DNA of 64,000 nt from Frigoriflavimonas asaccharolytica. Its GTDB lineage: Bacteria; Bacteroidota; Bacteroidia; Flavobacteriales; Weeksellaceae. The notes under the pieces were generated by a model, which saw only the letters and a list, made by a program, of their open reading frames with translations, was not told the DNA's origin and did no database searches. Below are positions 11,795 through 34,676 of the stretch, piece after piece. The position numbers were made by a program, and so were the translations under genes. Position 1 is the stretch's first letter, and each line of letters starts with the position of its first letter. The stretch covers positions 1-64,000 of the forward strand of contig NZ_JABSNO010000016.1 in assembly GCF_013294015.1 (NCBI RefSeq), read 5' to 3'.

Positions 11795-12946
11795 ATGCGA
11801 GATTTATTACCCTATTATCTACAAACCAGACTCTTTACAATCAATCTATGCGCACCGCTGCAGTTAGAAGATTATATACCACAACCTGTAGATTTTGCAA
11901 GTCCACCAAAGTGGCATTTAGCTCATTCTACATGGTTCTTTGAAGAAATGATTCTAAAAAAATTCTATCCAGAATATCAAATTTTTCATCCGGATTTTTC
12001 TTTTTTATTTAATAGCTATTATCAAACAATTGGCAAAAGAGCGGTAAGAAATCAACGTGGTTTGATCACGAGACCAAGTGTGGAAGAAGTGTATAAATAT
12101 AGAAAATATGTGGATGCTAAAATAGAAGAATTGCTTACTGACGAAGATAACTTGGAAATCCGAGAGCTTATAATTCTAGGGATCAATCACGAGCAACAAC
12201 ATCAAGAATTACTAATTACAGATCTTAAACATACATTTTCTTTTAATCCAATAAATCCTGTTTATAAAGAAAATTTTGACTTAATTAATCAAGATAATGA
12301 GGAAACAGGCTGGCTAGAAATAGAAAAAGGATTGTATCAAATAGGTTTTGAAGGGGAAGGTTTTCATTTTGATAATGAAGTAGGTAGACATCAAGTATAT
12401 TTAAATGATTTTCAAATCTCGAAAGCATTGGTTACTAATGGAGAATATATTGAATTTATTGAGGCGGGAGGTTATCAAAATTTTAAATTTTGGCTAGACG
12501 AAGGTTGGAGTTGGGTAGAAGAAAATAAAATTGATGCACCTTTATATTGGGAAAATATAGATGGAGTTTGGCATCAATACACTTTGGGCGGATTAAAAAT
12601 TGTAGAAAAAGATAAAATTCTTGCACACATTTCTTTTTATGAAGCTCAAGCTTTTGCAAATTGGAAAGGTTGCAGATTGCCCACAGAATTTGAATGGGAA
12701 GCAGCATCTGCAAAATTTAAATGGGGAAAAAGATGGGAGTGGACTTATTCTGCATACCTTCCTTATCCAAAATTTGAAATTGCAGAAGGCGCAGTTGGAG
12801 AATACAATGGCAAATTTATGATCAGCCAAATGGTTTTGAGAGGAGCTTCTACAGCTACACCAAAAGGACATGAAAGATCAACATACAGAAACTTTTTCCA
12901 TCCAAAATATAGATGGCAATTAACAGGAATAAGATTAGCAAAATAA
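11795..12946 (+). CDS. egtB: ergothioneine-type sulfoxide synthase
   Basis: EgtB is a non-haem iron enzyme that uses O2 to join a thiol (cysteine or gamma-glutamylcysteine) to hercynine. The 383-residue protein has an N-terminal DinB-like domain with WHLAHSTWFFEE (His at about 41-44) and NHEQQHQELL (about residues 131-140), which supply the three iron-binding histidines. A C-terminal formylglycine-generating-enzyme-type domain follows (CRLPTEFEWEAAS, WEWTYS, VLRGAS, YRNFFHP, TGIRLAK). It precedes egtD by 3 nt, so they form one operon. No EgtC or EgtE gene is adjacent. The thiol donor cannot be told from sequence. Confidence 0.88.
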   Translation: MRDLLPYYLQTRLFTINLCAPLQLEDYIPQPVDFASPPKWHLAHSTWFFEEMILKKFYPEYQIFHPDFSFLFNSYYQTIGKRAVRNQRGLITRPSVEEVYKYRKYVDAKIEELLTDEDNLEIRELIILGINHEQQHQELLITDLKHTFSFNPINPVYKENFDLINQDNEETGWLEIEKGLYQIGFEGEGFHFDNEVGRHQVYLNDFQISKALVTNGEYIEFIEAGGYQNFKFWLDEGWSWVEENKIDAPLYWENIDGVWHQYTLGGLKIVEKDKILAHISFYEAQAFANWKGCRLPTEFEWEAASAKFKWGKRWEWTYSAYLPYPKFEIAEGAVGEYNGKFMISQMVLRGASTATPKGHERSTYRNFFHPKYRWQLTGIRLAK

Positions 12947-12949
12947 AAT

Positions 12950-13903
12950 ATGGAATATAATGCACAGTTTCTAGAAGACACACAAAACGGACTAAGCGAT
13001 AGTCCAAAAAGATTGCCTTCTAGATATTTTTATGATAAAATTGGTGATAAAATTTTTCAAGAAATAATGGCGATGCCAGAATATTATCTTACAAATAGTG
13101 AAACAGAAATTTTCAAAATTCAAGCAAAAGAGATTATAAATTCTTGGAAAATTGACAAAGACATTCCTTTTGAATTGATAGAATTAGGAGCTGGAGATGG
13201 CACGAAAACTATATTTCTTTTGGAAGAATTGCTACATCAAAATTATAACTTCAGTTATTTACCGATTGATATTTCTCAAAACGTTTTGGACGATTTGGTG
13301 AATAATTTATCTGAGAAACTACCAGATTTAAAAATTGAACCAAAACAAGGTGATTATTTTATGATTTTGGATGAGCTTTCCCAAGATGATAAGCAAAAGA
13401 TTGTTCTATTTATTGGTTCAAATTTGGGTAACTTAGAAGATAAAATTGCTGCAGAATTTTTGAAGAATGTGACTGCAAGTTTTAGAAATAAAGATAAATT
13501 GCTTCTTGGTGTAGATTTAAAAAAAGATTTTAAAACAATTTTGCAAGCTTATAATGATGAGAGCAAAATTACAGCAAGATTTAATCTTAATCTCTTGCAA
13601 AGAATGAACAATGAATTAGGCGCAAATTTTATTGTTGAAAATTTTCTGCACGATCCAGAATATGACGAAGAAGAAGGTGCTGCAAAAAGTTACTTGAAAA
13701 GTCTAACCAATCAAAGTGTTCATTTTTCCATTAATGATAAAGTATTCCATTTTGAAAAAGATGAAAAGATTCTAATGGAAATTTCTAGGAAATATGATGA
13801 CGATGTTTTAAATAATCTTTTAATAGATTCAGGAGTTCAAATTAAAGCGAAGTTTGTAGATTCTCGAAGCTATTTTGCAGATTACATTTTAGAAAAGAAG
13901 TAA
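12950..13903 (+). CDS. egtD: L-histidine N-alpha-methyltransferase
   Basis: EgtD trimethylates the alpha-amino group of histidine with three S-adenosylmethionines to give hercynine, the substrate of EgtB. The 317 residues match the family length. They show the N-terminal SPKRLPSRYFYD block, MPEYYLTNSE, the SAM-binding LIELGAGDGTKT, IDISQNVL, and FIGSNLGNLE, which is typical of the DUF2260/EgtD family. It lies between egtB (3-nt gap) and a racemase-like gene (1-nt gap), so the three are probably co-translated. The eastern end ADYILEKK is complete. Confidence 0.9.
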   Translation: MEYNAQFLEDTQNGLSDSPKRLPSRYFYDKIGDKIFQEIMAMPEYYLTNSETEIFKIQAKEIINSWKIDKDIPFELIELGAGDGTKTIFLLEELLHQNYNFSYLPIDISQNVLDDLVNNLSEKLPDLKIEPKQGDYFMILDELSQDDKQKIVLFIGSNLGNLEDKIAAEFLKNVTASFRNKDKLLLGVDLKKDFKTILQAYNDESKITARFNLNLLQRMNNELGANFIVENFLHDPEYDEEEGAAKSYLKSLTNQSVHFSINDKVFHFEKDEKILMEISRKYDDDVLNNLLIDSGVQIKAKFVDSRSYFADYILEKK

Positions 13904-30283: not shown

Positions 30284-30724
30284 ATGAAAAAATCTGAAAT
30301 TTTAAATATTGTACACGAAAAATTAGATTTAAAAATTAAAACTTTAGAAAATCTAATTGCAGAAACGCGTGCTTCCAACAACGAAACTAAATCTTCGATG
30401 GGAGATAAGTACGAAACTACGCGTGAAATGGTGCAACAAGAAATAAATAATCTTCAAGTTCAATTGAATGAAAATTTGCGTGCTAAAACTGTTTTAAAAA
30501 ATGTGTCTACTGATTTACAAACGAAAGTAAAATTGGGTTCTTTGGTAGAAACAGAAAATGGTTTCTTTTACATTGCTATTTCTTTGGGTGATATACTATT
30601 TAATGGCAAAAAAATCTATCTAATTTCAGAGGAAAGTCCCTTGGCAAAAGCGATGATTGGCTTTAAATCTGGCGAAATATATGTTTTAAATAATGTGAAG
30701 CAGAAAATTTTAAAAATTTGGTAA
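30284..30724 (+). CDS. GreA/GreB-like C-terminal domain protein with coiled-coil N-terminus
   Basis: The 146-residue protein begins with a helical coiled coil (residues 1-75; MGDKYETTREMVQQEI is the most conserved part). It ends in a small domain with LGSLVETENGFFYIAIS and ISEESPLAKAMIGFKSGE, close to the transcript-cleavage factor C-terminus (S-P-L-G-K-A-L-L-G pattern). The acidic tip residues of GreA are not obvious. It is often misnamed 3-oxoacyl-ACP synthase in databases. An RNA-polymerase-binding role is plausible. Neighbour: a decaying gene directly downstream. Confidence 0.7.
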   Translation: MKKSEILNIVHEKLDLKIKTLENLIAETRASNNETKSSMGDKYETTREMVQQEINNLQVQLNENLRAKTVLKNVSTDLQTKVKLGSLVETENGFFYIAISLGDILFNGKKIYLISEESPLAKAMIGFKSGEIYVLNNVKQKILKIW

Positions 30725-30745
30725 AATGAAAGTAAACTTGACGCG

Positions 30746-31438
30746 ATAAAAAAAATCTTTTTCTTCCTTTTTTTTCTACATATTTTTTCAAATGCAACAG
30801 CACAAAAAATTACTAAGCTAGTTGCAAACGTGAAAGGAAATTCGATTGATTATATTGAAATACATACAGAAGATTATTTATTTGTATTAAGTGGAAACGG
30901 TCAGATTTCTTCTATTTCTACCCCTATATTAAATGGGAATTTAGATTATTTTAATGATCCGCATTATCAAAAAGAAAAATTTGGACAATTGCAAAGTATC
31001 GACAATCAACAGATAGATTATTGGCTTACTGCTAATGAAGCAGATGCAAGATTTGGTAAAGTAAAGAGAATTGGCAACATTGATGTTGATTATTGGAACA
31101 GTTTAAATTACGAAAGAGATAAATTTGGTTAAGTAAAAACCATTGGAAACATTCCAATAGATTATTGGGAAAAGTTTGGAACCGACAGCAATGTCAATGG
31201 AAAAATAAAAAGTATTGGGAATATTTTCTTAGAATATTATCTAAATGAACCTTTGAATAGTGGTAAAACTGGTAAATTAAAAACTTTTGGACCAATAGAA
31301 TTTGATTATTGGAATGATTCTTTTAATCAGCAAGGTAGATTTGGAAAATTAAAATCAATTACGGGAAATAGCGAAAAATTACTTGTGCAATTTAGAGATT
31401 TCACTATTTTTCAAAATGGCAAAGTAATATCCTATTAA
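30746..31438 (+). pseudogene. secreted DYW-repeat protein, interrupted by a stop and lacking a normal start
   Basis: One frame runs from 30746 to 31438, broken by a single TAA at 31130-31132. Its first codon is ATA (in place of ATG), followed by KKIFFFLFFLHIFSNATAQ, a signal peptide. The body has about five units of roughly 25-30 residues containing F-G-K/Q-x-K/Q-S/T/R-I-G-N-I-x-x-D-Y-W. At the stop, a Lys codon (AAA) in the other repeats has become TAA, so both defects are single-base changes. The rest is well preserved, which suggests recent loss. The family is not recognised, and the repeats suggest a secreted beta-rich protein. A sequencing error could also explain it. Confidence 0.7.
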
Positions 31439-31491: not shown

Positions 31492-32286
31492 ATGCAAAAT
31501 TATTTAGATCTTTTAAAACATATAAAACAAAACGGAACCGATAAAACCGATAGAACCGGAACCGGAACTCGCAGCGTTTTTGGCTATCAACTGCGCTATG
31601 ATCTTTCCGAAGGTTTCCCGATGGTTACTACCAAAAAAGTGCATTTAAAATCTATTATTTATGAACTGCTTTGGTTTTTAAAAGGTGATACAAACGTAAA
31701 ATATTTGCAAGATAATGAAGTGAAAATCTGGAACGAATGGGCAGATGAAAATGGAGATTTAGGACCAGTTTACGGTGCGCAATGGCGAAGTTGGGAAGGA
31801 GCAAATGGAAAAATGGTGGATCAAATTTCTGAAGTAATAGATCAAATTAAAAAAAATCCAGATTCTCGTAGACTCATCGTTTCTGCTTGGAATGTTGCAG
31901 AAATTCCAAACATGGCTTTAGCACCTTGTCACGCTTTATTTCAGTTTTACGTTGCAGATGGAAAATTGTCTTTGCAATTGTATCAAAGAAGTGCAGACGT
32001 GTTTCTCGGCGTTCCGTTTAATATTGCTAGTTATGCGCTTTTATTAATGATGGTTGCGCAAGTTTGCGATTTAGAAGTTGGAGATTATGTACATTCTTTT
32101 GGCGATGTTCATATTTATAACAATCATTTTGAGCAAGTCAACAAACAACTATCTCGAACGCCAAAATCCTTACCAACCATGAAATTGAATCCAGAAATAA
32201 AAGATATTTTCGATTTTGATTTTTCAGATTTTACTTTAGAAAATTACGAACCTTATCCTGGAATTAAAGCGCCAGTTGCAATTTAG
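31492..32286 (+). CDS. thyA: thymidylate synthase
   Basis: It makes dTMP from dUMP with methylenetetrahydrofolate. The 264-residue protein equals the E. coli length. Marks are [12 protein letters not shown], the dUMP-phosphate Arg region, [10 protein letters not shown], the catalytic Cys in [32 protein letters not shown], and the C-terminal [10 protein letters not shown] closing the active site. It is a single gene, 53 nt after the interrupted repeat gene and followed by decayed sequence. The surrounding degenerate genes do not affect it. Confidence 0.97.
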
Positions 32287-32311: not shown

Positions 32312-32665
32312 ATGAAGAATAAAATAAAAAAACCAAGTAAATTAAAGATTGATGGTCATCTAGACATCACCGTTCATAATAGAAAAATAAAATATTAAGG
32401 AAAAAAAATTACACAGAATCAAGTATTAATACACGGAGATTCAAAAGGGTTAAAATCTTTCTCTAAACTTTTGTTAAAATTATCAAAATTGAATCAGGAG
32501 AGTATTGAAGATAATATTTTACCAATTGGTGCAAGAGAACATCTTCATTTAATTCCAAACTTAGAAATATCAAAAAGTTCTGTAGAAGTGATTTTAGGAA
32601 GACTTGATGCAAAAGGAACTGGTAATTTTTATGAAGATTATAATCCAAAAAATAATAAAAAATGA
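32312..32665 (+). pseudogene. Imm32-like small protein gene with an in-frame TAA
   Basis: An ATG at 32312 opens a 118-codon frame broken by one TAA at 32396-32398. The remaining product contains ITQNQVLIHGDSKGLKSFSKLL and AREHLHLIPNLEISKSSVEVIL. This pattern (GD-x-x-GL, then H-x-H-L and a hydrophobic end) resembles Imm32-type immunity proteins, which protect against polymorphic toxins, but the likeness is weak. The stop codon overlaps the ATG of the next gene by four bases (ATGA). The part after the stop (from an ATG at 32471) could still be translated separately. Confidence 0.5.
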
Positions 32666-33236: not shown

Positions 33237-34676
33237 TTATTTTAAAATATTTCCTCTTGGCTGGTTGCCTTGTATCAATACTTTTTCAGTATGAAGAAAT
33301 TCGGCAGCATTTCTAGAATCTTCCACTTTAGTTGCCGATCTTTTTAGCATTTCTTCTTCAAACTGATTTAAAACGGAAGTTCTTATTCCATTTTTTCGCC
33401 AATCCGAGTTTTTACAATTTTTAAGTATCAACTTTGCCAAATTCAAAGCATCAAGCAGCGCCTGGTTTGCACCCTGACCTTTAAACGGACTCATTGGATG
33501 AGCAGCATCGCCCAAGAAAGTGATTGTTTTATTTTTTTGCAAAATTTCTATGTTTAATAATTCCCGATCATAAACTGGATATCCGGAAATAAGATCTTCC
33601 GAAGTTGCAGAAATAATTTCAGGAATTGGTGCGTGCCAATTTTTCACTCTTTCAAAAACATCTTTTTTCAATACTTTAGAACCTTTTTCGCTTAGAATTT
33701 TCGCATCTTTTTCAGAAATTTGATAACTGAATTGCCACATAATTTCGTCTTGAGAATAAGGCATCATATACATTCTTTCTATTCCATTTGCAGTTTGAAA
33801 TACGGTTTCAGAATCTAATAATATATTATCTACATTTTTTATCTTATCTAAAGAGCAAATTCCTAATATTACGATACAATCCAAATATCTCAACGGAAAT
33901 TCACTTTCATCTATCGTTAAACTACGAACGGTACTACGAATTCCATCTGCTCCAACTATTAAATCTGGCTTGGTAAAAACAGATTTTCCTTCGTTATTAA
34001 ATTCTATTTCTATACTTCCGTCTTCACAATTTTTTAAATTTAACAATTGATGTCCCCATTTTACAGTATTATTTGCATCTAGTTGATTTAATAATTCTAA
34101 TCTCAAATTTTGTCTGCCAATGTGAATGTTTTTTCGCCGAGAAATGTAGTTTGTATTTTCTCCCAACCATTTTCGCATTCCCCATTCACCAAGAATTTTA
34201 CCCTCTTCATTGTGAACAACATGTCTGGTAGAAATTAATCCCTTAGATAATTTTGAAATTCCAAGAGCATTTATTGCTTTGCTGGCTTGCTGTAATGTTA
34301 AACCATATCCTTGCTTTCTTGAATCGAAACTTATATCTTTTTCATATAAAATAAATGGTATACCGCGATGCAAACATGCTGCTGCCAAAGCAATTCCACC
34401 AATTCCTCCGCCAATAATTGCTATTTTGGGTAGAGTTTCAAAATTTGGAGGTAGATTTTGGTCGGCGCGTAGAATTCCGGTTCCATCGCAAATTTCACAT
34501 TTTAAAAGTGGGTTTTCTGGAGGAACTGGTTTTGCGCCTTGTTGATCAGAATCTTGGTAAAATTTCAATTGCTTTTCATAGCGCAATTTTATTTTCTTCC
34601 TAATACGAAGTCTGTTTTTTCCAATGCCATCGCAGTCTTCACAATATTTCCAGAAATTTTGACTTTCGTTTTTCAC
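33237..34676 (-). CDS. FAD-dependent monooxygenase with N-terminal DnaJ-type CxxCxG zinc-finger module
   Basis: The 479-residue protein begins with two CxxCxGxG-like half-sites, C12-x2-C15-D-G and C60-x2-C63-D-G-T-G, the type that binds zinc in DnaJ. A basic helix separates them. From residue 85 a Rossmann FAD domain follows (IAIIGGGIGGIALA, later LIVGADGIRSTVR with the DG motif, and FLGDAAHPMSPFKGQGANQAL), as in PheA/TetX-type aromatic hydroxylases. The reaction is probably NAD(P)H-dependent hydroxylation, substrate unknown. It is divergent from cbpA, whose J-protein lacks this zinc module. That is suggestive but unproven. Related proteins with the same N-terminal module seem to exist in other bacteria. 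Confidence 0.82.
   Translation of the reverse strand: MKNESQNFWKYCEDCDGIGKNRLRIRKKIKLRYEKQLKFYQDSDQQGAKPVPPENPLLKCEICDGTGILRADQNLPPNFETLPKIAIIGGGIGGIALAAACLHRGIPFILYEKDISFDSRKQGYGLTLQQASKAINALGISKLSKGLISTRHVVHNEEGKILGEWGMRKWLGENTNYISRRKNIHIGRQNLRLELLNQLDANNTVKWGHQLLNLKNCEDGSIEIEFNNEGKSVFTKPDLIVGADGIRSTVRSLTIDESEFPLRYLDCIVILGICSLDKIKNVDNILLDSETVFQTANGIERMYMMPYSQDEIMWQFSYQISEKDAKILSEKGSKVLKKDVFERVKNWHAPIPEIISATSEDLISGYPVYDRELLNIEILQKNKTITFLGDAAHPMSPFKGQGANQALLDALNLAKLILKNCKNSDWRKNGIRTSVLNQFEEEMLKRSATKVEDSRNAAEFLHTEKVLIQGNQPRGNILK

Follow-up and report, generated by a model that had tools for sequence, protein, structure and literature searches.

Between a GreA-like gene and a gene that we take to be thyA, the forward strand of Frigoriflavimonas asaccharolytica carries a reading frame with two disabling changes. 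Throughout, the window is the whole analysed stretch of 64,000 nucleotides. The features at the locus are as follows.

30284..30724, + strand: intact GreA-like gene directly upstream, with weak matches below cut-off; a family-wide neighbour of the repeat gene
30746..31438, + strand: very probable pseudogene of a predicted exported hairpin-repeat protein, judged from its lesions and from intact orthologs at the syntenic site
30746..30805, + strand: signal-peptide-like stretch IKKIFFFLFFLHIFSNATAQ, judged by eye, starting with ATA where orthologs have ATG
30809..30979, + strand: N-terminal region, residues 22-78, modelled mainly as beta sheet in an intact ortholog
30980..31339, + strand: five 24-residue units, starting at 30980, 31052, 31124, 31196 and 31268
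31130..31132, + strand: in-frame TAA in the third unit, read from the sequence
31340..31435, + strand: half unit FGKLKSITGNSEKLLVQF and tail, from the sequence and the ortholog alignment A1
31492..32286, + strand: intact downstream flank, presumably thyA, with ~88-93% identity to relatives

The broken frame opens with ATA at 30746-30748 and ends at 31436-31438. All 31 intact relatives that were read have ATG at the position of the ATA. The ATA lies 21 nt past the stop of the GreA-like gene. Among the 24 aligned orthologs this gap measures 3-20 nt in 22, and the other two have the gene order swapped. No ATG, GTG or TTG occurs in frame from the preceding in-frame stop to the ATA, and the first in-frame start is a GTG at 30830, downstream of the signal-like stretch. 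The second lesion, the TAA at 31130, sits in the third repeat unit at a position occupied by K or R in all 24 aligned orthologs, as judged by eye. The initial annotation had proposed a secreted repeat protein broken by exactly these two changes, with ATA replacing the start and TAA standing where sister repeats have AAA. Both changes are confirmed in the frame 30746-31438, and the existence of intact orthologs at the same site supports the proposal as a whole. In this assembly the start codon is disabled, as is one internal codon. A full-length product would not be expected in Frigoriflavimonas asaccharolytica.

The repeat units begin at residues 79, 103, 127, 151 and 175, a spacing of exactly 24, and an additional half unit was recognized by eye from residue 199. 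The self-score at lag 24 is 163, compared with a top best-lag score of -31 among 2000 shuffles. The frame has a coding score of 0.22 and the remaining five frames score negative. A period this far above the shuffles, in the sole frame with a positive coding score, argues that the observation is not due to chance. The repeat units and signal peptide had been described as well kept, and this holds for the 24-residue period as well as for the signal-like start, the latter assessed by eye. The coding score is nevertheless below the minimum of 0.42 among 34 long training genes, which were scored on themselves, and can be compared with 0.39 for the GreA-like gene and 0.27 for the 78-aa gene at 32662. 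Such a low value weakly suggests relaxed constraint, or simply a lineage-specific gene. Promoter-like sites are not enriched (7 against a shuffle mean of 8.5), and two terminator-like sites lie on the opposite strand (shuffle mean 0.6).

Other parts of the window contain features of separate interest. Downstream of the presumed thyA, a second broken-looking gene of Imm32-like type spans 32312-32665 on the + strand, with a TAA in frame at 32396. The Imm32-like match (31.4 bits, cut-off 27) is located behind this stop, no usual start occurs from the TAA until a TTG at 32471, and the coding score is 0.26 overall and 0.36 behind the stop. The gene at 33237-34676 on the - strand encodes what is presumably an FAD-monooxygenase-like protein with two CxxCxGxG motifs ahead of it (by eye), which we take to be DnaJ-zinc-finger-like. 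Two adjacent genes at 11795-13903 on the + strand have, by eye, the look of EgtB-type and EgtD-type genes, presumably an ergothioneine-type pair.

Intact versions of the broken gene are widespread in the family. Matches were found in 66 of 320 Weeksellaceae genomes, with the window genome included. By score and frame, a hand count assigns 58 of these to the ortholog type (window included) and the other eight have weak second-branch matches only. An open frame of at least 213 aa is present in 53 of the 58 ortholog-type genomes, and five genomes carry broken or fragmentary copies. Frames were read for 31 of the 53 open orthologs, all complete from ATG, and the other 22 were judged by frame length. 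Carriers of an intact copy include Chryseobacterium daecheongense DSM 15235 (L006/L073), a species placed in Weeksellaceae. The A1 alignment holds 24 of the 31 read orthologs, seven having been omitted as close to others. The closest relatives of the window protein (G255, G277 and G269) share 50-51% identity with it, and in the gene tree the window clusters with g8 and g22, at a support of 0.98. The comparison with relatives called for by the initial annotation hence yields full-length ortholog frames in 53 of the 320 genomes. A shared stop combined with the lack of any intact copy did not occur among the relatives read.

The broken gene appears to be single-copy. No credible second copy was found in its own genome, and the second-branch profile A2 finds the window gene only. 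One candidate on contig C9 (E 0.006, 35% identity, 85 aa) was rejected as spurious, having two internal TAG codons. The second branch itself, read in four loci (L043, L044, L047 and L048), has about four units and different gene neighbours. By weak scores it also occurs in four further genomes and beside an ortholog in G194.

The locus is conserved well beyond the window. Among 17 loci retrieved around matches, 11 show the order GreA-like gene, repeat gene or fragment, thyA. Two more (G225 and G240) have the repeat gene adjoining the GreA-like gene without thyA, and the four second-branch loci have neither flank. In two g12 genomes (L041 4280-5368 and L042 3652-4751), the pair is adjacent on one strand with the order swapped relative to other genera. 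The label GreA-like is itself a loose one, as GreA_GreB (20.7 bits, cut-off 26.9) and TIGR01462 (23.9, cut-off 139) both match below cut-off. The repeat gene would share one transcript with its GreA-like neighbour.

Broken and missing copies recur at this site. Besides the window, the G251 copy is divided between two frames, only the back part of the gene was found in G091, and G021 and G181 each retain ~66 residues. The GreA-like gene has matches in 301 of 320 genomes, most with two or three matches, some of which may be other family members. Among these, 20 genomes without an ortholog match were hand-picked, one of which (G193) carries a second-branch gene at another place. For 17 of the 20, tblastn edges put 53-1022 nt between the GreA-like gene and thyA, with no more than 279 nt in 16 of these. 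No remnant of the repeat gene was found in those 17 sites using the 24 orthologs at E 0.01, and thyA was not found in the fetched stretch of the remaining three genomes. Absence of the gene at the syntenic site is, given these 17 of 20 sites, common. The presence of the gene at one site in several genera, together with the fragments, speaks for probable vertical descent with losses. The gene would be useful in certain habitats only, hence its repeated loss.

The loss in the window seems young. Among conserved columns (at least 90% of non-redundant orthologs), the window is altered at 6 of 43, including the start. For intact orthologs that are about as diverged, the count is 5 of 47 (L003), 4 of 47 (L005) and 9 of 51 (L007). 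It rises to 16-17 of 55 in the two g12 proteins and amounts to 0-9% in the g6 proteins, whose references are closer. The branch of the window gene relative to g22 has a ratio of 1.43-1.47, near the top of the span of 0.61-1.49 for five neighbour genes: the histidine kinase (1.16-1.34), the amylase-like gene (1.35-1.49), thyA (1.30-1.43), the GreA-like gene (0.87-1.31) and gene 28305 (0.61-0.79). Relative to g8, the ratio is 0.69 for the window gene versus 0.85-1.55 for the five neighbours. The response-regulator gene was omitted from the branch comparison, having only 22 shared columns. No clear acceleration of the broken copy is evident against the five neighbour genes, which is what a young loss and a read error both predict. 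A point change in the frame creates a stop in about 4.1% of cases, so that one internal stop corresponds to ~24 neutral changes, an estimate whose error is very wide. As most conserved residues are kept and no clear acceleration is seen, the loss is young or the lesions reflect read errors. On the scale of the genus, here represented by one genome, the loss would be recent unless a read error lies behind either lesion or both, and a recent pseudogene is the most likely case.

The initial annotation had offered recent loss, phase-variable loss and a sequencing error as options, and recent loss fits best. A sequencing or assembly error, leaving the gene intact in the living organism, is unlikely. 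In its favour, neither the conserved residues nor the branch length clearly betrays relaxed constraint, and the assembly is made up of 67 contigs. Yet two damaging differences would have to fall within a single 690-base frame, in an assembly with a completeness of 99.71% and a contamination of 0.07%. Coding scores across the window picked out three stops with coding sequence on both sides, all ordinary gene ends, at a threshold that missed both this gene and the Imm32-like gene. Loss is also evidently tolerated, as four further genomes have a broken copy or a fragment.

The good preservation of motif and reading frame could alternatively mean that the gene still functions, either by initiation at ATA and read-through of the TAA or as two pieces making separate proteins. 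AUA initiation is known at low rates. This reading is very unlikely given the consistent ATG start of the intact relatives, and a piece translated from the in-frame start at 30830 would be without the signal peptide. Least credible, to the point of being negligible, is a phase-variable gene in its off state. A run of eight A residues adjoins the ATA, beginning at the third base of that codon, and could have served as a slippage tract. However, the nearest upstream ATG, at 30726, is out of frame and runs into a stop (30747-30749) right at the run's edge, so that slippage cannot connect it whatever the run length. The TAA at 31130 lies, by eye, in no homopolymer or short tandem repeat. Phase variation was rejected on these grounds. 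The preferred reading, held with considerable confidence, is a recently inactivated, single-copy Weeksellaceae ortholog of an exported hairpin-repeat protein, perhaps a dispensable periplasmic or surface binding or scaffold protein that has been lost repeatedly. The event is an ordinary one, a young gene loss, and greater interest attaches to the protein family.

The initial annotation could put no name to the repeat family, and no Pfam or NCBIfam model exceeds its cut-off for the window protein. Pfam returned one row at E <= 10 (E 0.14, below cut-off), NCBIfam none for the window protein and two for ortholog L003, both below cut-off. Searches with the 24 orthologs gave weak, unrelated Pfam rows, the best being YolD at E 3.5e-4 in three of the 24, and the four second-branch proteins likewise gave weak rows. 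Sequence searches of the PDB reached at best E 0.82 with the window protein and E 0.21 with the A1 profile. A literature search on the repeat found no paper. The family is present in 58 of 320 Weeksellaceae genomes (broken copies included) and beyond, and no family accounting for it emerged from Pfam (window protein and 24 orthologs) or NCBIfam (window protein and L003).

Relatives outside Weeksellaceae emerge with a profile search. A contig scan with the single window protein recovered no relative from 370 candidate stretches, and a scan with the A1 profile recovered at least 30 loci. Among the matches listed, those beyond Weeksellaceae include Segetibacter, Pleomorphovibrio, Niastella, Pedobacter, further Bacteroidota bins and Zophobihabitans. 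Two of the proteins, L098 4959-5312 from Zophobihabitans entericus and L100 2448-2798 from goat gut, have a signal-peptide-like start and consist almost solely of 16-residue YW.DG.IRSIG units. These units are KVEYWSDGKIRSIGD-like. The hhalign comparison of the 16-residue profile with A1 aligns the two unit by unit (98.7%, E 2e-16), a score of the kind that repeats inflate. The difference between the 24- and the 16-residue unit is an 8-residue loop. L098 matches MORN_2 (31.0 bits, cut-off 29.6) and DUF2963 (23.4, cut-off 22.6) over cut-off, and L100 has no MORN_2 row. MORN_2 (PF07661) did not match the window protein at E <= 10 or the 24 orthologs at E <= 1. Searching the genome of the window with MORN_2 gave 14 rows, none over cut-off and none in the broken gene.

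The fold of the intact ortholog L003 was modelled with AlphaFold2, using A1 (pLDDT 82.6, pTM 0.76). Strands lie between residues 25 and 69. Strand pairs then recur at 24-residue intervals between 83 and 189, and 203-207/213-217 make up the last one. The intact ortholog is accordingly modelled as an N-terminal sheet followed by one beta-hairpin per 24-residue repeat, in which K-x-K-x-I-G and x-I-D-Y-W would form the strands and a long polar stretch the loop between them. A Foldseek search of the model against the PDB found nothing at E <= 1e-3, and the next rows were teneurin-2 (3.2e-3 and 3.8e-3) and Rhs-type effectors. Rows 1-9 of a VIA comparison were Rhs or teneurin chains at Z 7.8 to 6.2 and rmsd 3.8-8.3, Tse5 being counted as Rhs on our assumption. 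The best match, at Z 7.8 and rmsd 6.7 over 145 residues, possibly reflects a common arrangement according to the tool. Many lower rows were WD40-type propellers that match residues 20-60 only. The modelling suggested by the initial annotation hence produced hairpins every 24 residues, whose nearest folds, weakly, are the hairpin spirals of Rhs/YD proteins. A model of L098 built from two sequences (pLDDT 81.8, pTM 0.64) had Rhs, teneurin or Tc proteins in 24 of 30 VIA rows, with a best Z of 5.3.

The intact protein would leave the cytoplasm through Sec and end up in the periplasm or on the outer face of the cell, where it would act as a non-enzymatic binding or scaffold surface. No conserved lipobox cysteine was seen by eye in the orthologs and no recognised sorting tail was found. 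No enzyme family matched the window protein above cut-off, and the eight far and second-branch loci showed no common neighbour theme, as judged by eye from first residues. The signal-like start and the lack of a lipobox, an enzyme match and common far neighbours together point to a periplasmic or surface role in binding or scaffolding. This is the most likely function but a tentative one, at less than even odds, as the enzyme-less reading follows from an absent signature. The pairing with the GreA-like gene in both orders is a hint and the sole functional lead. The GreA-like gene gave no match near 12 far relatives and one same-order locus. Intact and broken copies occurring naturally at one syntenic site provide a simple handle on function.

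Among known systems, Rhs/YD proteins (Rhs effectors, teneurins and Tc B/C) have tandem beta-hairpins in common with the modelled family, and share with it the Tyr-aromatic-Asp ... Gly-Lys/Arg-hydrophobic pattern of the YD motif. Unlike Rhs/YD proteins, the family has only 5-6 hairpins, its own signal peptide and its own N-terminal sheet. The family could still be a member of, or have decayed from, Rhs/teneurin-type YD proteins as a fragment of a toxin shell, as the top VIA rows of two separately built models, for the 24- and the 16-residue units, are Rhs, teneurin or Tc shells, all with Z < 8. We consider such an origin improbable. No Rhs Pfam row appeared for any member scanned (the window protein, 24 orthologs, four second-branch proteins and seven far relatives), the Pfam rows of the 24 orthologs include no toxin or protease domain, and 53 genomes carry a short, full-length gene that brings a signal peptide and an N-terminal region of its own.

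Further protein families offer a second comparison. Bacteroides proteins appear low among the structural matches of the 16-residue model (BVU_2266 3tzg Z 3.0; DUF3836 4r8o Z 3.4 and 4r03 Z 3.3), and BVU_2266-like proteins also give weak sequence rows (E 0.38 and 0.19), all below any trustworthy threshold. The beta-flower fold (PF21784-PF21786) is portrayed as a closed barrel, built from 8, 10 or 12 strands, with short beta-hairpin petals and [DNEQ]XXG tips, some members being annotated as a MORN repeat variant and some having lipoprotein motifs that suggest membrane association (PMC10584680). Short hairpins and the MORN-variant annotation are points of likeness, and the 24-residue model adds an N-terminal sheet. 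No beta-flower Pfam row was found for the 24 orthologs or the far relatives scanned. For MORN_2, the likeness comes through the 16-residue relative L098, which matches over cut-off and whose profile aligns with the window family. Unlike MORN_2, the 24-residue units carry eight extra loop residues, and the window protein and 24 orthologs are without a match. The modelled family resembles a hairpin-repeat protein of the Rhs/YD or MORN_2 kind, and is at most a candidate member of either. A bolder and more doubtful reading is that a widespread, unnamed family of exported 16- and 24-residue hairpins, made of the same strand pair with or without the 8-residue loop, links MORN_2 and Rhs/YD and, in Weeksellaceae, forms a conserved two-gene unit with the GreA-like gene, whose two orders hint at a functional pair and not at chance neighbours. 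The repeats may show a relation between the short hairpin repeats of MORN_2 type and the long shells of Rhs/YD proteins.
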